Source: a virus
Reading direction: 5' to 3' (one strand)
IMG/VR virus record: IMGVR_UViG_3300005782_000172
Span: 1-20,853 of that record
DNA: 20,853 nucleotides
Made by a program: the position numbers and the translations under genes. Positions 1 to 20,853 of this stretch are shown in pieces. Every line of letters starts with the position of its first letter. Position 1 is the first letter of the stretch. Below the pieces are notes generated by a model. The model searched no databases. It saw nothing but the letters and a program-made list of their open reading frames with translations, and was not told the DNA's origin.

Positions 1-57
1 CCACCGAGATCTACACCTAAGCCTTCGTCGGCAGCGTCAGATGTGTATAAGAGACAG
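1..57 (+). other. Illumina Nextera adapter (non-biological)
   Basis: Bases 1-16 match the tail of the Illumina P5 primer, 17-24 (ctaagcct) read as an 8-base i5 index, 25-38 are the Nextera read-1 spacer, and 39-57 are the 19-base Tn5 mosaic end. It is untrimmed library sequence joined to the left end of the assembly. It creates false peptides: the last 13 residues of the apparent gp6 reading frame (ending SYTHLTLPTKA), and an MCIRDR start on the plus strand at base 41. Confidence 0.98.
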
Positions 58-3000
58 GTACATTTTCAGCACTTGCCGCCGAAGCGAACAACTGATCCGG
101 CTCAGACCTGACCTGGAACATTGCACCAAAGGACAAATCATTGGACCTTGGTACGATAACCACCGACTGGATATCCGGCGTCAATTCCTTATGGATATAT
201 GCTGCCAGTTCGGTGAAGTAGAATGTCTCACCGAAGTCCCAGTTCGCTGCTTCGAAGAATGTGTTGATCGCTGCCAAAACTCTCAGGCGGATATTGTTTT
301 CACTAACCAGTGATCCTGGGGTCTGAACAATCTTGAAAGTAGCCTGGAGTTCTGGTATCGCCTGCTCACCAAACAACAGTAAGTATCTGGTCGAGTGGAA
401 GATAATCGAATCACTCATGGTTTTGAAATCTTCAAAATCCTGGAACTGAGTGCGCAGTGCTTCCGAGGACGGGGCTTCTGGCATCGTGCTCAGTGGTTCG
501 TTGTTGAACAACCAGGAACGGATTTGCTCATCATATAGCGCCGTGAGGATATAAACATCCATGACATTCGACACCGACGGGTCAATTCGAATGGAATCCG
601 GGGAGTAATGAACCCACTTAAACGGTAGATCATCCCTACCAATCCGATACTGATACGCATCCTGATTAACAGCGACTTCCCATTCACCCTCAACGTGGGT
701 GGTCTGGTTAGCACCATTTGCCACCAACCATTGACCGGTGGTCTGGTCATAGTGAATATCACCACTAACATACGGAATAGTGTGACACGCCACGAGTGGG
801 GTGGCGGAATAATAGATCGTCTTAGTCTGGATGGGATCACCCGGTACTGGATAACCACTAACGGTATCAACACCTTGCGTTCCATACGTCCCTTTCGGCG
901 AAGTGAATCGGTTTATCGGCTGGGGTACTGTGAATCCTTGCGAATCAATACTCCTCCAAAGAACCAAATCGGTTACTCCGTCCTCTACAACGAAATCGCT
1001 AAACAGGAACGGATTGTCGTAGAATCCCGAATTATCTAAGTCAGCCGGGGTGACAAAAATACCGTCAGTATTGACGTAGCCGTCTGGATATCGGAGAACA
1101 TCGGAGACAAACAGCTCATTTCCGGAGTCCGAGATAAAACTGGGATCGTCTGAGATGCACTGTCTACGTAAGCTGTCCCTGGTCTCATTGCAATTAAGAA
1201 TGGTAACGGCGTCATGTTCAACCACACCAGTCTCGGGATTAAGAACAGCAGAATTATTTACGAAGAAGAAATCGACTTCACGAGCTGATTCCCAGAAGAA
1301 TCCAAACCCACGGTCTGTGATGCTCCAGAAATCTTCACCGGTTCCACCAGGAACGAATTCAGCCATAATCATCCACGACGCATCAAGTCCGGAGCCGGAC
1401 GTATTACCTTGGTTTGCAAGGCTAAATGGTGATGTCTTATCGAGATTTTCAAAGGTGATCATATTCCAAGTGGATGTCACATAGTCCCAGGAGATACCAA
1501 AATCAAGACGGAACAATAATTGCTGCTCGATGTTGGCAAGCTCGGCTCCAGTGAATACTGTACGCATAGCCGGGAGCACGGAGTCAATCGTGTCCAAGTC
1601 CTGCACTATATCACGAAGGATTATCGATCCGGCACCAGTGCCGTCATCAACGATCCGATCCACGTATGCGTTTACGCTCAACCCGGTTGTTATAACGGCG
1701 TCAACATCAACGAATTGAAGATTAGTTGTTGTATTTCCGGTACCTACCGGTAAAATATTACTACTATTGTCCTTGATATTACCACGGGACTGGTCGGCAA
1801 CTATCGCATTTTCTGCCCATTCATATGGTTGAAGAACAAAGTCACCATTGCCATTAAGGCGGGTATCGGTGTTAGTGTTATCAAACTTTATCGGCGGATA
1901 ATCATTAACATACAGAACATTCTTGTCCGGTTTTGAAATAAGAGGTGCTATGTAATTGTTCAATAAGGAATCAATAGGCACGATGGTTATGTCTGCGGAC
2001 ACCTGGGTGTTCGTCAGAGTATTATCTTTATAGAACCTACCATCGTCTGCCATGACCTTAACGTTCTGGTACAATCCAGTCGGGTCTGTCAGTTTGGAGA
2101 ATCTGGAGTGACCGGCATACGTCCGATTTACAACCTTGACTTTCTCGATGGCACTATCTTTCAGGAAGAAACTATTATAATCCTGACCGGTAACCATGCG
2201 ATTCTGGGTGTAGAATACCCGATTAGCACGGGTTCTGATATCGTCATTCGATTCTGTAGCGGCAGCATTCAGTAACTGATCCCTCAGAGAGAATGTCAAT
2301 GTCAAATAAAATATAGTCGAGTCAACAACATAAGGCACGGTTACTTGTTGATTCTGTATGGCTTCTGGCTTGATAGCCTGCGGCTGTGGGTTTGCGGTGC
2401 GGTACCAGAACCTGAATAGTCCCTGGGGGATCGCACCGAATTTACCATCACCAAAACGAACCCGAACCGTGTCGCCGAGTAGGGTGTCTATTTCATAAAT
2501 GGTATTCGAACTGTCAACGTCCGGATCGAATGAAACGCCTTCACCGAACACATCATCAACCTGAGTCCAATTCTGGATAACGTCACCATTTTCATCGACT
2601 TCTTGAACAAAGAAATCGTCATTATTAATATTGGGGACATCAAGATCAAACACACGGATAATGATCGGGTCTACAAAATCCACATCACGGAAGGTGAGGG
2701 TTCCCTGTACTACCTGGAAGAAGAATCCAGTACCGTCGGAGGAAAGACCTTTACCGTCCTGGTTATACAGGATGTTGTAAGCGTTTGTTGGGTCAGGAAT
2801 ATTTTCCTCGACCACACCAGTATCCTTGTCCAATAACAAGTTGATGGTATCAAACGGGAGGTTCACACCATTAACCTGGGTGGTGAACGGGTATGAGCCG
2901 CCCTCGGGGGCAGCCGAATTGAAAACGTACTGGTCCTTCTGGATGCCATCAGTCTGTGTGGAAACCAGCGGTCTACCGAACTGGGTCCGGCGAGTGAATG

Positions 3001-3490
3001 CGGAGTTCATGATCAAAATAAACTGTTCCAACCAATCCTCGTTGCGGGGGTCGTTCCAGATAATATCAGCATTCTGGATATTAATACCGTTGGAATCGGT
3101 GATTGGTTGATCTGTTCTTATGCGCTCGATGCGGACTTGACCGCTGGCGGAAGTAACACGGTCTACCTTATATGCCACGTTTTCGGCGAGGCGGATGAGG
3201 CTGTTACGACGTTCTGCTGTCGCCAAAAAGTTTTCCCTGGCGTTCAGGTCGATCCTGAAAGCGATGTTCTGGGACAACCACGCCAGTGTCTCGACTTTCA
3301 TTATAAATTCCGAGGAGGCTATCCAATCGTTGAATTCTTCCGGGAAGGTCTGCTGTAAGTGATCCATTATAGCCTGGACTAAGTTATCGAAGTCGTAGGC
3401 TCTAAAGTCAACGTTTTCAATGGCTTGGTATATCTGAATCCAATCCTCAGCGACGAATAATGTATTCTGTCTACTAATTACGTTTGCCAT
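58..3490 (-). CDS. gp6: Baseplate wedge protein gp6-like, 3' end cut by adapter
   Basis: Structural protein of the T4-type baseplate wedge; gp6 dimers form the ring that links wedges around the hub. The N-terminal helical region (about 45-110: FNDWIASS, WLSQNIAFRIDLNARE, LAENVAYK) and a baseplate-J-like strand segment (about 341-365: RVRFGDGKFGAIP) are typical of the family. So is the segment near the end (NWDFGETFYFTELAAYIH). Real sequence covers 1144 residues, against about 660 for T4 gp6; most extra length is an insertion of several hundred residues after about residue 560, rich in aromatic and Asp/Asn/Gly residues, which I do not recognise. The family C-terminal motif is nearly complete, so probably only a short tail is lost. 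The start ATG shares one base with the gp25 stop (TAATG), suggesting coupled translation. Identity is strong; the function of the insertion is unknown. Confidence 0.88.
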
Positions 3491-3984: not shown

Positions 3985-4851
3985 ATGAAAAAAGCCTTAT
4001 GCATGGATGATTTTATTCAGAATTACAGGGTTTTACTAACAGAGGAGCAAGAAAACGACCTGTTTCAACTTTGGTGGGATACCAAAAGTCAAGAAGTACT
4101 ACTTGAAATTGTTAAGGCATACTCGCCGATAATCCAGCGTTGCGTCCGGGAGCTTGCCGGATACAAAGCAAATCCAGAAGACTTGCGTAGTGAAGGCGTC
4201 ATTGCACTCCTTGCCGCTGCACAAAACTTCAAACCTGAAGTTGGGCGATTCGCAACCTATGCGAAAACGTGCATTAAAGGTATTATGCTGGGTTTCATCA
4301 CCAAGAACTATTTTCCAGTCAACGTATGTACCAGTCATGGGAAGAAGAAATTATTTTTCTCAATCCGAAAACTGGTGGCTATCACACTGATTAAGGAAGG
4401 TAAATTCGACATGACCAGGGATATCGCCGTGGAACTTGCGGAGAGTCATGAAGTGGATGAGGCTGTGGTTTACAGCATGTACGACATGATACGGAAGCCG
4501 TACATTTCACTTTCCGAGAAGATTCCGATGTATGGTTTTGAGACGGATCACACCATTGAGGAACATATGGTGCTCGACGGTGATGATACCGATGTATCAG
4601 CTGACCTCACCGACCTGCAATTCCACCGCAGGATCATTGATACCGCAATGGATGAGGTTCTCGACAACCGGGAGCGTAGGATTTTCGAATCCCAAATGCT
4701 GGTAAATCGGGAGGACAGGATAATCCTGGAAGACCTCGGGGCGGAATTTGACATCTCCAAGGAACGAGTACGGCAGTTAAGGAACGGTGCCTATACTAAG
4801 GTCAAGCGTGCGATCATCCGGACCATCGGTCACGATCCGGATATGTTTTAA
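3985..4851 (+). CDS. Sigma-32 (RpoH)-like RNA polymerase sigma factor
   Basis: A full-size sigma factor of 288 residues, the length of bacterial RpoH (E. coli 284) and much longer than T4 gp55 (185). Region 2 spans about 44-110 (PEDLRSEGVIALL, FKPEVGRFATYA). KKLFFSIRK at 121-129 closely matches the RpoH box (QRKLFFNLR in E. coli), which is specific to heat-shock sigmas. Region 4.2 is at about 249-278, with a helix-turn-helix ISKERVRQLRNGAYTKVKRAI. It would bind host core polymerase and redirect it to its own promoters. The start has a strong ribosome site (GAGGAGGG). The gene runs against the late genes on both sides, and its TAA interlocks with the gp5 stop in TTAA. RpoH-type identity rests on the box and on region 4; which promoters it reads is unknown. 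Confidence 0.85.
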   Translation: MKKALCMDDFIQNYRVLLTEEQENDLFQLWWDTKSQEVLLEIVKAYSPIIQRCVRELAGYKANPEDLRSEGVIALLAAAQNFKPEVGRFATYAKTCIKGIMLGFITKNYFPVNVCTSHGKKKLFFSIRKLVAITLIKEGKFDMTRDIAVELAESHEVDEAVVYSMYDMIRKPYISLSEKIPMYGFETDHTIEEHMVLDGDDTDVSADLTDLQFHRRIIDTAMDEVLDNRERRIFESQMLVNREDRIILEDLGAEFDISKERVRQLRNGAYTKVKRAIIRTIGHDPDMF

Positions 4852-11278: not shown

Positions 11279-11800
11279 ATGGCTGTTCGGAAGAGGAAGC
11301 CCAAGAACTACGTTAACAATGCTGATTTATTGATACAGATTCAACTCAGTAAGAACACACAGTTGGAAAATGAGGATTTTACCCCGGCTCAGTGCCTCAC
11401 CAGCGAACTGGTGAAGATGCTGATCATGCTCGTTGAGCGGTACTCCCAGAAAGCAAACTGGAGGAATTACACGTACTTAGACGATATGAAGGGAGAGGCT
11501 ATCGCCTCTTTGTGCCAGAATGCGCTCAAGTTCAAACCTGAGAAGAGTAACAATCCGTTTGGGTACTACACCCAAATAGTTACGCATTCTTTCCTCACTT
11601 TCCTTGAAAAAGAGAAAAAAGTGCGTAAAATACGTGATGACCTTCTGGAACTCAATGGGTTCACCCCGTCATTCACCAGACAGATCGAGAATGACGAGCA
11701 GGCTCGGGTTGACCGGGAGGATAGAGCTATCACCCACGACGAGGTGGTAGAGAAACCTGACCCCCACGGAGCACAAGATGAGTACAAAGATCACACCTGA
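11279..11800 (+). CDS. gp55: Late-transcription sigma factor gp55-like
   Basis: T4 gp55 is a minimal sigma factor that, with gp33 and the gp45 clamp, directs host polymerase to late promoters. This 173-residue protein matches gp55 (185) in length and plan. It has an N-terminal basic stretch followed by NYVNNADLLIQIQL (T4: NYVNNKELLQAI), then a region-2-like helix bundle, with YLDDMKGEAIASLCQNALKF and NNPFGYYTQIVTHSFLTFLE (T4: KNPHAYITQACFNAFVQRI). A charged tail follows. It has no region 4 helix-turn-helix, as in gp55. The ribosome site is GGAGAG, 8-10 bases upstream. The 3' end overlaps the next gene by 23 bases. Partners gp33 and gp45 are not in this window. Confidence 0.85.
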   Translation: MAVRKRKPKNYVNNADLLIQIQLSKNTQLENEDFTPAQCLTSELVKMLIMLVERYSQKANWRNYTYLDDMKGEAIASLCQNALKFKPEKSNNPFGYYTQIVTHSFLTFLEKEKKVRKIRDDLLELNGFTPSFTRQIENDEQARVDREDRAITHDEVVEKPDPHGAQDEYKDHT

Positions 11801-17655: not shown

Positions 17656-17949
17656 ATGGTAACTGAAGAAGAAGAAGCTCTCGCATGGCACGAAACTTGT
17701 AGGAAGATTCGCAAGGAGCAACTTAGAAATTATTTGAATCCGGGGGTTCCCACTACTACTGTGGCTCCGGATTTAACAAATGACGAGGGTACAACAACCT
17801 ACGACATCGATCAGAATATAGAATATTCTCTAACACCAGAGAATAGGCATGAGCGCCGGAAGGCTAAGGCACTCGCACGCAAAAAACGTAATAAAGTCAG
17901 GAGTAATCATGCGAATAATCGGATTAACAGGAAAGGCAGGAAGCGGTAA
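17656..17949 (+). CDS. Hypothetical protein with acidic start and basic tail
   Basis: A 97-residue protein. The N-terminus is acidic (TEEEEAL) and helical. The middle is Thr/Asp-rich, and the C-terminus from about residue 63 is strongly basic (NRHERRKAKALARKKRNK and onward), so it may bind nucleic acid. The ribosome site is weak. Its 3' end overlaps the dNMP kinase gene by 41 bases in another frame, which is long for this genome and lowers confidence. Confidence 0.5.
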   Translation: MVTEEEEALAWHETCRKIRKEQLRNYLNPGVPTTTVAPDLTNDEGTTTYDIDQNIEYSLTPENRHERRKAKALARKKRNKVRSNHANNRINRKGRKR

Positions 17950-18574
17950 GGATACCGTAGCGAGAATAATCACCGAAGAACTTGAAGGTCAGGGGAAAAC
18001 AGTCACCAAGCTTTCGTTTGCTGCACCCCTCAAAGACTGCGCCGTCCTATTATGGGGATGGGATAGAGAGCGCCTGGAAAGTGATTTCGACTACAAAGAA
18101 GGAAACACCCTGGACGATGGTTCCCCAGACCCCGCCTGTGAAGCCCTGGGAATGACCCGGCGTGAATTCATGCAACAGTTCGGTACCGAAGCTATGCGTA
18201 ATAACATCCACCGGGATGTGTGGGTGATAGCCCTCAAGATGTCCGTCGCCCGTGGTGATTTTGATGGCTACGATTATGGTATGTTGACCGACTGCCGTTT
18301 CATGAATGAACTCCAGTTTGTCGCCGATCTCGATGGTTTAACATACAAGATCGTCCGTGGTGGAACGGTTACCACACTCACTAATAACACCGAGCACGCT
18401 TCCGAATTGGAATGGGAAGCATGGGATGAATGGGATGATATTATTGAAAATATCGTCGATGATAACCTGAGTATGGAAGAGAACCTTACCACACTCCGGG
18501 AAGTTGTCATCACTAATATACTAACACCGATCACTGAGGGTTACTTGGAAGATGTCCAAGAAGCTACTAATTAA
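17909..18574 (+). CDS. gp1: Deoxynucleoside monophosphate kinase, gp1-like
   Basis: T4 gp1 phosphorylates dNMPs, including modified ones, for phage DNA synthesis. The 221-residue product begins with MRIIGLTGKAGSGKDTVA, a P-loop at residues 8-16. It continues with the family pattern LSFAAPLKD, a MTRREFMQQFGTEAMR segment, and LTDCRFMNE, which matches the conserved 'D-x-RF-x-NE' motif of this kinase group. T4 gp1 is 241 residues. Start at 17909 is set by AGGAG five bases upstream and by the P-loop position. It overlaps the next gene by 23 bases. Confidence 0.85.
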   Translation: MRIIGLTGKAGSGKDTVARIITEELEGQGKTVTKLSFAAPLKDCAVLLWGWDRERLESDFDYKEGNTLDDGSPDPACEALGMTRREFMQQFGTEAMRNNIHRDVWVIALKMSVARGDFDGYDYGMLTDCRFMNELQFVADLDGLTYKIVRGGTVTTLTNNTEHASELEWEAWDEWDDIIENIVDDNLSMEENLTTLREVVITNILTPITEGYLEDVQEATN

Positions 18575-19097
18575 CCTCGAAAGTCCGTTCGCCGGACAAA
18601 TCGAACTTAACACACTGTATGCTCGCTTTTGTATGCATGATAGTATCGTCAATCATGGCGAGGCTCCGTATGCCTCACACTTACTATACACACAACCGTA
18701 TGTGTTGGATGATGATATATACGAGGAGCGCCAACTGGGGATACAGTCCGGGTTAGAATTCAACAGTGTTACAGACAAAACTGTGCTGTATATTGACCTC
18801 GGGGAGTCCCCTGGGATGACGCAGGCTGAGTTAGCTGCACTAATGGACAACCGTGAGATTGAGCGCCGGAACCTTCCCGAAAAATCTATGAAGAAATTCT
18901 GGGAAGCCGCAGTCACTGAAGGGTTGGTAGTGCCGCACGGTGATACCTATCTTACGGCTATCAGACCAGTGGGTCCACCGAATCGAACCATTAATGAAGA
19001 CGTGCCGTATGTAAAACAGTTGGCATGGGTTATACCATTAATATTACTTGGTATAATCGCATACGGTATTGCCGAGTCAGTAGGGTGGGTCGGATGA
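18552..19097 (+). CDS. Deoxyribosyltransferase-like (DUF7768-type) protein with C-terminal membrane helix
   Basis: A 181-residue protein. Residues 7-92 carry the pattern of the DUF7768/nucleoside deoxyribosyltransferase-like group: ESPFAG, an NTLYARFCMHDSIVNHGEAP segment, SHLLYTQ, VLDDDIYEERQLGIQSGLEF and VLYIDLGESPGMT. Homologues are common in phages and may act on nucleosides; their activity is mostly unproven. Residues about 93-155 form an extra segment, and about 157-174 (LAWVIPLILLGIIAYGIA) is a clear transmembrane helix, unusual for this fold. ATGA overlap with the next gene. The nucleotide-metabolism neighbourhood fits a role in nucleoside handling. Confidence 0.7.
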   Translation: MSKKLLINLESPFAGQIELNTLYARFCMHDSIVNHGEAPYASHLLYTQPYVLDDDIYEERQLGIQSGLEFNSVTDKTVLYIDLGESPGMTQAELAALMDNREIERRNLPEKSMKKFWEAAVTEGLVVPHGDTYLTAIRPVGPPNRTINEDVPYVKQLAWVIPLILLGIIAYGIAESVGWVG

Positions 19098-19423
19098 TAA
19101 TAAATCGACATGAAATAATGTGGGCAGACCTCGAACTCGATGTTTATTGTGGTGATAAATGTGATGAATCAGAACCACAATGGCACACGTTTTGTGAAGG
19201 TGACATGGATAGTGATACGGACCGTAAGCCTCTAATATTGGATGCCAAACACTTTCCCCCAGGTACACGTGTGACGGTTTCGATACCAGAGTGTCCCGAG
19301 TGTTACACCCCCCGTGATGTTTTAGTAACCAGTGACGGTTCAAATCAACACATCGAGCACGAAACTACATGTAGTGGTTGTGGGTTCGACTGGTCAGCCT
19401 GGGAACAAAACGAATACTCTTAA
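19094..19423 (+). CDS. Small protein with zinc-ribbon-like Cys pairs
   Basis: A 109-residue protein, started at 19094 by ATGA overlap with the preceding stop; the longer frame from 19025 would run inside that gene. Seven cysteines: CGDKC near residue 19, one in HTFCEG, CPEC (about 68-71) and CSGC (about 94-97, followed by GFDW). The last two pairs are a plausible zinc ribbon. No family recognised. Confidence 0.62.
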   Translation: MIINRHEIMWADLELDVYCGDKCDESEPQWHTFCEGDMDSDTDRKPLILDAKHFPPGTRVTVSIPECPECYTPRDVLVTSDGSNQHIEHETTCSGCGFDWSAWEQNEYS

Positions 19424-19442: not shown

Positions 19443-20600
19443 ATGCGCTACATAAAAATCGGGGTTCCCGATGACTTCGACGAAGAGAAGCAAGGCGATC
19501 TCACCCTTGTAGATTATTCCAAAGACGGTACTGGTACCAAGATCGAACTCTGGAAGCCGCCGTATCGTGAAGTCCTAAACCACGGCTTTATCGGTTTGGT
19601 TGACTTCATGGGTGACGACGCACGAATTGTGAACTCTGCCAGGGTCTCTTACGGTAAGGGCACCAAGAAGGTCCGTCAGGATCGTGGTCTCATCCGCTAC
19701 CTGATGCGCCATCGCCATACTACCCCGTTTGAAATGGTCGAGCTGATGTTCCATGTGAAGGCACCAATCTTTGTCTTCCGCCAGTGGCACCGGCATCGTA
19801 CCGCCAGCATCAATGAGTACTCCGGTCGTTATTCCATCCTGGAAGACGAGATGTATATCCCGGAGCACCAACATGCAGCACCGCAGTCTACCACGAACAA
19901 TCAGGGTCGTCAGGAAAACACCCTTGACGACAATGATTACTTGGCCATTCTAGCCGCAGTCGAGCAGTCGTTCCAGGATTCATATAGCACTTACGAGTAT
20001 CTGGTTGGTTCCACCGCTACTCCACCGGACGCTATCAACAACCGTAGACTGTGGATTGAGGAATCGGCTGTTAAGGCTGCTGCTGAAGTTCGCAATCGGA
20101 TGATCGAGTCCGACACTGAGCTGACCAACGAAGATGCCGAGAAGATGCTCGAAGAAAAGATCACGGAATATTACGCCGCCAATGAGCTTGCTGTTGTCGG
20201 TCCTGATTTCCCCGGTATGGCAAAGGAACTTGCCCGTATCGTGTTGCCGGTCGCCACTTACTCGCAGATGTACTGGAAGGCTAACCTGAAGAACCTGTTA
20301 CACTTCATAGGACTGCGCTCCGATCCTCATGCCCAGTATGAGATAAGGGTCTACAGTGACATCATGCTGGAAATGATCACACCCATCGTTCCATGGGCAG
20401 TTGAAGCATTCATGGACTACCAATTCAATGGTGCCAACCTGTCAACCTACGAGGTCGATGCGGTAAAGGCTATGATCGGCATCATGAAGAATAATGATTT
20501 GGTCGAAGGTGGAGCGGCGGAATGGCTTACCGGTATCCTCACAGATAAAGGTGCCTCCAAGCGAGAAATCGACGAGTTCATTGCCAAGTTCGACGCATGA
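19443..20600 (+). CDS. thyX: Flavin-dependent thymidylate synthase ThyX
   Basis: Makes dTMP from dUMP using folate, FAD and NADPH. The signature RHRTASINEYSGRYS (117-131) is complete. The nearby FRQW, the RHRHTTPFEMVE segment (about 89-100), and LRSDPHAQYEIR (291-302) also match the family. At 385 residues it is long: usual ThyX proteins are about 220-320. The extra length is a 40-residue N-terminal segment, an acidic insert at about 185-260 and a C-terminal extension after about 325. I start at 19443, with AAAGGAA upstream, not at 19332, which would overlap the zinc-ribbon gene. T4 instead uses the unrelated gene td. Confidence 0.93.
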   Translation: MRYIKIGVPDDFDEEKQGDLTLVDYSKDGTGTKIELWKPPYREVLNHGFIGLVDFMGDDARIVNSARVSYGKGTKKVRQDRGLIRYLMRHRHTTPFEMVELMFHVKAPIFVFRQWHRHRTASINEYSGRYSILEDEMYIPEHQHAAPQSTTNNQGRQENTLDDNDYLAILAAVEQSFQDSYSTYEYLVGSTATPPDAINNRRLWIEESAVKAAAEVRNRMIESDTELTNEDAEKMLEEKITEYYAANELAVVGPDFPGMAKELARIVLPVATYSQMYWKANLKNLLHFIGLRSDPHAQYEIRVYSDIMLEMITPIVPWAVEAFMDYQFNGANLSTYEVDAVKAMIGIMKNNDLVEGGAAEWLTGILTDKGASKREIDEFIAKFDA

Positions 20601-20853
20601 AAAAACAGTATCACACACTGATACTTCTGTCCGGTGGTCTCGACTCAACGACTTGTTTGTTCAAGCTGTTGGGTCAGACCAAGGATGAGATTACAACACT
20701 CTACGTGGACGTTTCAAATAACTCCGCCAAGTCATGGTGTGAGCGACTGGCTATCACTCGCCTGCGTGACCGGGCTGAGGAACATATCAGAGAAATAAGC
20801 CATAAACATATTGAAACCCCGGCTACCATAAACGGTTCCGTCAACGGTGGGCT
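20597..20853 (+). CDS. PP-loop ATPase, QueC-like, cut by window end
   Basis: The first 85 residues only. LLSGGLDSTTCL (10-21) is a PP-loop motif (SGGLDS), and the following strand (LYVDVS) and helix (SWCERLAITRLRDRAEE) fit the QueC/adenine-nucleotide alpha-hydrolase fold. QueC makes preQ0; in some phages preQ0-type bases are placed in DNA to resist restriction. The truncation hides the C-terminal zinc site that would confirm QueC. Another PP-loop enzyme remains possible. ATGA overlap with thyX. Confidence 0.65.
   Translation, partial: MKKQYHTLILLSGGLDSTTCLFKLLGQTKDEITTLYVDVSNNSAKSWCERLAITRLRDRAEEHIREISHKHIETPATINGSVNGG

Follow-up and report, generated by a model that had tools for sequence, protein, structure and literature searches.

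The locus and its gene content

The window, i.e., the whole stretch of DNA that was analysed, is an entire viral contig of 20,853 bases from an uncultured large tailed phage, of which 8.9 kb found no match in a megablast search against 50,697 phage records. The gp46-like nuclease subunit encoded in it shares 60% identity with the counterpart in a viral contig of 25.9 kb (IMG/VR 3300001270_000075, hereafter L092), and only about 34% with its top-ranked matches from cultured phages. Positions 1–57 resemble an Illumina/Nextera adapter, which we take to have remained in the contig, so that the ORF at 17–3490 (minus strand) ends in an artefact tail. Two sigma-factor-like ORFs (3985–4851 and 11279–11800), recognized by eye, lie amid baseplate-like genes on the other strand. 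The cluster studied here consists of a dNMP kinase, a DUF7768 protein, a small ORF and ThyX, with a QueC-like gene next to them:

17909–18574, plus strand: dNMP kinase (DNMK PF21448, E 9.5e-13; phrog_139, E 3.8e-43), overlapping the start of the DUF7768 gene by 23 nt
18552–19097, plus strand: DUF7768 protein with a predicted C-terminal membrane anchor, 181 amino acids (ORF with ATG start and TGA stop; PF24963)
18552–18917, plus strand: predicted NDT/DNPH1-fold domain, residues 1–122 (AlphaFold2, Foldseek, VIA-align)
18579–18581, plus strand: codon of Glu10, at the NDT beta-1 Ala/Gly position (family invariance, alignment register)
18825–18827, plus strand: codon of Ala92, which aligns with the nucleophile Glu of NDTs (family counts, alignment register)
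18879–18917, plus strand: extra helix, residues 110–122, common to the subfamily found at loci L092, L011, L012 and L018 (alignment, model)
18918–19007, plus strand: disordered linker, residues 123–152 (pLDDT below 50 at 132–150)
19008–19079, plus strand: predicted transmembrane helix, residues 153–176 (model helix, hydropathy; absent in relatives)
19094–19423, plus strand: small cysteine-rich ORF, 109 amino acids, its ATG overlapping the stop of DUF7768 as ATGA (phrog_24515, E 1e-10)
19443–20600, plus strand: ThyX thymidylate synthase (PF02511, E 1e-51)
20600–20853, plus strand: first part of a QueC-like gene truncated where the contig ends (PF06508, E 8.1e-05, barely above its cut-off)

The start codon of the DUF7768 gene is supported by its 23-nt overlap with the kinase gene, which recurs in L092 with 20 nt, and the gene end by the ATGA shared with the gene that follows. 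Were the tail a separate small gene, in-frame starts would be available (e.g., GTG at 19002), with no clear ribosome-binding site upstream. L092 is a syntenic relative, in which the same order is observed (gp47, gp46, RuvC-like, dNMP kinase, DUF7768, ThyX) and in which the identities to the window amount to 67% for the dNMP kinase, 52% for DUF7768 (over residues 6–140) and 65% for ThyX. There, 60 nt separate the DUF7768 gene from thyX, the window having about 410 nt more at this place, and the 109-residue ORF, which has relatives in two unrelated phages, was not detected by tblastn. The slot between the dNMP kinase and thyX holds differing small cysteine-rich ORFs in related phages (19094–19423 in the window; 5709–6002 in L093), as in a variable cargo site.

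The setting in nucleotide metabolism that the preliminary description of this gene had evoked is found at the locus itself, where the dNMP kinase and ThyX flank the DUF7768 gene. Elsewhere, DUF7768 adjoins a dCTP pyrophosphatase in Yersinia phage TG1 and lies within about 2.1 kb of ThyX in Vibrio phage 496E54-1, while SLOG-type and QueC-family genes are near it in L018 and also in L011, the latter having in addition a MazG domain and a dCMP deaminase (Pfam). QueC-family genes occur in the window as well as in the L011 and L018 records, the last two of which carry the extended DUF7768 subfamily; none was found in the records of L092 and L012, both of them perhaps fragmentary. The proteins downstream of DUF7768 in L011 (4372–4851) and L018 (4694–5170) look like NDTs and have a Glu where the nucleophile would be (GSYFELAW), but no Pfam match. 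Across the family, the sample of neighbours came from the 110 loci with usable gene calls among 140 non-redundant ones (212 near and 174 far genes), of which the first 148 near genes and the first 120 far genes (four genes away) were scanned; L092 was excluded, since its neighbours were what had led to it. Nucleotide enzymes show no clear excess beside DUF7768, which speaks against a link to nucleotide metabolism, with about 5/148 near vs about 3/120 four genes away among the matches listed, the near ones listed being dGTP diphosphohydrolase (2), dCMP deaminase (2) and ThyX (1). DNA methyltransferase matches are in excess, with 13/148 near vs 1/120 four genes away, again among the matches listed, where a member may count twice.

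The DUF7768 domain, its fold and its catalytic positions

The preliminary description proposed a DUF7768-type domain in the N-terminal 90 residues, followed by a linker and a C-terminal transmembrane helix, an architecture that PF24963, AlphaFold2 and hydropathy confirm at the level of prediction. Pfam DUF7768 (PF24963) matches residues 7–103 (E 1.6e-20; 73.7 bits vs a cut-off of 26), close to the proposed extent, but the folded unit reaches about residue 122. Among PHROGs, the protein matches phrog_24212, of unknown function, and phrog_355 (E 6.3e-11), labelled “nucleoside 2-deoxyribosyltransferase”; NCBIfam yielded no match. When used as a tblastn query, the protein matched 326 of 50,697 phage records, none of these matches covering 80% of its length, and a single-sequence search of viral contigs for close relatives returned four pattern matches, of which none was confirmed. 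Profile searches recovered 374 stretches of viral contigs, of which 80 were kept, as well as 74 loci in bacterial and archaeal genomes. The conserved residues of the family (E10-S-P, S42-H43, R60, D82, G88-M89, R106) are all present in the window protein; the invariance of S42, H43 and E37 is partly built in, since these residues lie inside the search patterns, and positions 10 and 92 lie outside of them. DUF7768 is widespread in phages and also present in bacteria and archaea, yet no paper naming DUF7768 or PF24963 was found in the open-licence literature, nor, among the matches listed, any title on an anchored deoxyribosyltransferase-type phage enzyme.

Neither the window protein nor the family profile led to a solved structure by sequence, and an AlphaFold2 model of the protein was built with 69 sequences (mean pLDDT: 85.6). 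It comprises a confident domain over residues 1–122, which includes the extra helix 110–122 (block means of 92–98 over residues 1–120), a linker at about 123–152 in which pLDDT falls below 50 at 132–150, and a separate C-terminal helix at 153–176 (block pLDDT of 84–85 over 161–180). Foldseek against the PDB returned two matches below 1e-3, both to the NDT of Chroococcidiopsis thermalis (best: 8pqt, E 3.2e-4, probability 1.00). With VIA-align, the closest structure is PA1492 (1t1j; Z 12.7, 2.2 Å over 103 residues), with NDTs, DNPH1 and MilB at Z of about 8–11, and the best matches in the viral library include named DUF7768 proteins, then phage deoxyribosyltransferases. The deoxyribosyltransferase-like fold put forward in the preliminary description is thus recovered by both Foldseek (8pqt) and VIA-align (1t1j), and, according to the model, residues 1–122 are a DUF7768 domain of the NDT/DNPH1 fold.

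The deoxyribosyltransferase label fits this fold, not the catalytic residues. Enzymes of the NDT superfamily use a triad of Tyr, Asp/Asn and Glu. Glu104 of DNPH1 forms the glycosyl-enzyme (PMC10603095) and, in DmtZ, a phage NDT-like enzyme acting on dAMP, replacing either Glu103 or Tyr6 with alanine abolishes both activities (PMC12884076). We aligned 69 DUF7768 proteins with two NDTs, one DUF1937 protein and two NDT-like phage proteins using L-INS-i; DUF4406/DUF1937 searches of 18 genomes had given matches in one place, which were taken as comparison sequence. In this alignment, the NDT nucleophile Glu aligns with Ala92 of the window protein, a position at which 228 relatives, out of 243 loci, have Gly (186), Ala (39), Ser (1), Leu (1) or a gap (1), i.e., Gly or Ala in 225 of them and never Glu. 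Where NDTs have their Tyr, at the last residue of strand 1, the window protein has Asn8 and its relatives mostly have Ile or Val. The region of the Asp/Asn acid-base residue holds E59/R60, the alignment being unsure there. Finally, the small residue of NDT strand 1 (Ala/Gly) aligns with Glu10, which is invariant (238/238 relatives) and which is replaced by Val in the two NDT-like phage proteins. Comparison of the family profile with single NDT sequences by hhalign was insignificant, one weak match agreeing with the placement of the nucleophile Glu at Ala92, and the active-site register consequently rests on the L-INS-i alignment, together with the SP[FY] motif and the structural match.

With both the nucleophile Glu and its partner Tyr absent, catalysis through the standard NDT triad is not supported, nor is a handling of nucleosides in the manner of an NDT. 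Ser9 of the Y7F/A9S variant of CtNDT is reported to lie 2.5 Å from the nucleophile E88 (PMC12645435); Ala9 of CtNDT, we infer from the common [AE]SP[FY] motif, would correspond to Glu10. The presence of Glu10 at an Ala/Gly position that comes this close to the nucleophile in an engineered NDT suggests, on the strength of the alignment, a swapped carboxylate, from the helix Glu to Glu10 of strand 1.

The C-terminal helix and its distribution

The tail of the protein is the most hydrophobic segment among the 24 translated genes of the window. The 19-residue Kyte-Doolittle mean peaks at 2.06 at residue 157, the next of the 24 translated genes reaching 1.71, and the lowest Hessa-type sum is 1.87, the next of the 24 being 6.02. 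Among the stop-free 41-codon stretches in the six frames of the window, 111 of 11,260 reach 2.06 (those overlapping the tail being counted), while none of the 5778 coding-frame stretches outside the tail does. Shuffling the residues of the whole protein reaches this value in 974 of 20,000 cases, but the test is weak, the tail itself being part of what is shuffled. In the model, the hydrophobic stretch is not buried in a soluble fold: its helix lies outside the domain and follows the disordered linker.

Positive charges (K155, R138, R145) are found on the N-terminal side of the helix and none in residues 176–181. Positive charge flanking a membrane helix marks the cytoplasmic side (positive-inside rule), and this pattern would thus place the domain in the cytoplasm. 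A single predicted helix at the C-terminus, followed by five residues and preceded by a soluble domain, corresponds to the layout of a tail anchor. The preliminary description had located the protein at the inner membrane; a membrane helix is indeed predicted, but “inner” would hold only for a Gram-negative host.

To count such tails, 243 loci were considered, from which 8 were set aside (the motif used to place the C-terminus was not found) and duplicates were collapsed, leaving 199 distinct proteins. The search for the same fusion elsewhere, which had been proposed at the outset, came back empty: 0 of these 199 relatives has a C-terminal anchor, and none has a C-terminal segment above 1.34. 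The DUF7768 protein of L092, with 147 amino acids, ends at about residue 140 of the window protein, where the linker begins, and is devoid of anchor. In L014, a hydrophobic stretch lies upstream of the domain, before the likely start Met, and was not counted as an anchor. When compared alone to phages, the tail (last 71 residues) matched only two records of one Sphingomonas phage with an E of about 1; these matches lie under an endolysin and were taken as chance rather than as relatives. C-terminal additions of other kinds do occur: in two Parcubacteria proteins (L154, 3980–4915; L156, 1–897), DUF7768 is joined to a guanylate-kinase domain (PF00625, with a cut-off of 25.2 bits and scores of 30.5 and 28.4), a further pointer to nucleotide metabolism. 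An N-terminal MazG domain suspected by eye in a protein of Pectobacterium phage CBB (L010) had no support in Pfam. On the sequences compared, the anchor is lineage-specific, and it looks like a genuine addition that is so far unique, i.e., a single case.

Interpretation and comparison with known systems

Our preferred reading, to which we give a probability of about 0.5, is that the gene encodes a cytoplasm-facing, tail-anchored phage DUF7768 protein that acts on or binds (deoxy)nucleoside monophosphates, as judged from its sequence and model. The domain would be held to the membrane by the C-terminal tail anchor and would bind, and probably act on, a (deoxy)nucleoside monophosphate via Glu10, possibly as a substitute for an NDT nucleophile that has moved. 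The anchor would be a recent, lineage-specific addition relocating an otherwise soluble enzyme, for example to the site of phage DNA entry or replication. A narrower version, which we advance tentatively and consider rather unlikely, would make DUF7768 a branch of the NDT superfamily with a moved carboxylate (E88 to Gly/Ala; A9 to Glu10), the same spot being reached from another side of the pocket, and the window protein a tail-anchored nucleotide-modifying enzyme in a dNMP kinase/ThyX cluster.

Alternatively, the hydrophobic tail could be accidental, inserted DNA (with the small ORF) having removed the old stop of a soluble enzyme and the read-through happening to be hydrophobic. Such an event would account for the earlier end of the L092 protein in the same gene order, with its much shorter distance to thyX, and for the tail being found in 0/199 relatives; moreover, about 1% of the stop-free 41-codon stretches of the window are equally hydrophobic. 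However, this frequency also means that a 1% chance event is required, while the stop codon shares an ATGA with the start of the following gene, as would be expected of an established gene, and the tail combines the length of a membrane helix (24 residues in the model) with a fitting charge pattern, and we hold the accident to be unlikely, albeit with an appreciable chance.

The two remaining alternatives accept the anchor and differ from the preferred reading in what the domain does. That it might be a catalytically dead NDT-fold nucleotide binder at the membrane, e.g., one that soaks up or senses nucleotide signals for the purpose of anti-defence or exclusion, would agree with the lack of the NDT nucleophile Glu and Tyr in the family, with a fold that binds nucleotides and with the membrane presumably being where entry and exclusion act. 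Yet the near-invariant polar residues E10, D82, R60 and R106 suit an enzyme at least as well, and no link to defence or anti-defence was found: PADLOC, which covers defence and not anti-defence, gave 0 matches for the window protein and two single weak ones in 69 DUF7768 members (E 0.0084 and 0.02), and the anti-Thoeris protein Tad3 was matched by 1 of the 120 genes four positions away from DUF7768, without any pattern, which leaves us regarding a dead binder as improbable. A standard NDT or DNPH1-type N-glycosidase/transferase for base salvage from host DNA, merely tethered to the membrane, appears very improbable, even though the fold match and the phrog_355 label would fit and a phage NDT-like enzyme, DmtZ, is described as acting on dAMP (PMC12884076): the residues at positions 92 (Ala92 here, Gly/Ala in 225/228) and 8 (Asn8 here, mostly Ile/Val in relatives) argue against it, and, in the same source, DmtZ loses both activities once Glu103 or Tyr6 is changed to alanine.

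Should the carboxylate swap be true, a crystal structure or a Glu10 mutant would give DUF7768 the status of a defined class of enzymes. A real anchor would mean that nature has placed a nucleotide enzyme of a phage at the membrane, where it can be compared with a soluble syntenic relative. DUF7768 as a stand-alone domain was already known, and what is new here is a membrane anchor present in no examined relative. Stand-alone phage DUF7768 proteins share with the window protein a domain above the cut-off and the conserved ESP, ASHLLYTQ, ER, D, GM and R, but they are mostly short and lack the C-terminal membrane helix. The protein of L092 further shares the place between the dNMP kinase and ThyX and the extra helix region, yet it has neither the anchor nor the small ORF before thyX. 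PA1492 (1t1j), which is DUF1937-like, is the best structural match to the domain and has, in its motif S-A-G-I-R-R-E, a Glu where DUF7768 has Gly/Ala. DNPH1 and phage DmtZ, which are dNMP N-glycosidases of the NDT superfamily, resemble the window protein by their nucleotide-pool setting and, for DNPH1, by the fold; they need the Tyr-Asp/Asn-Glu triad (PMC12884076, PMC10603095), whose Tyr and Glu the window protein lacks, and no membrane anchor is mentioned for them in the passages cited. Finally, the Parcubacteria proteins of L154 and L156 also carry extra C-terminal sequence after DUF7768, but there the partner is a kinase domain instead of a membrane helix.
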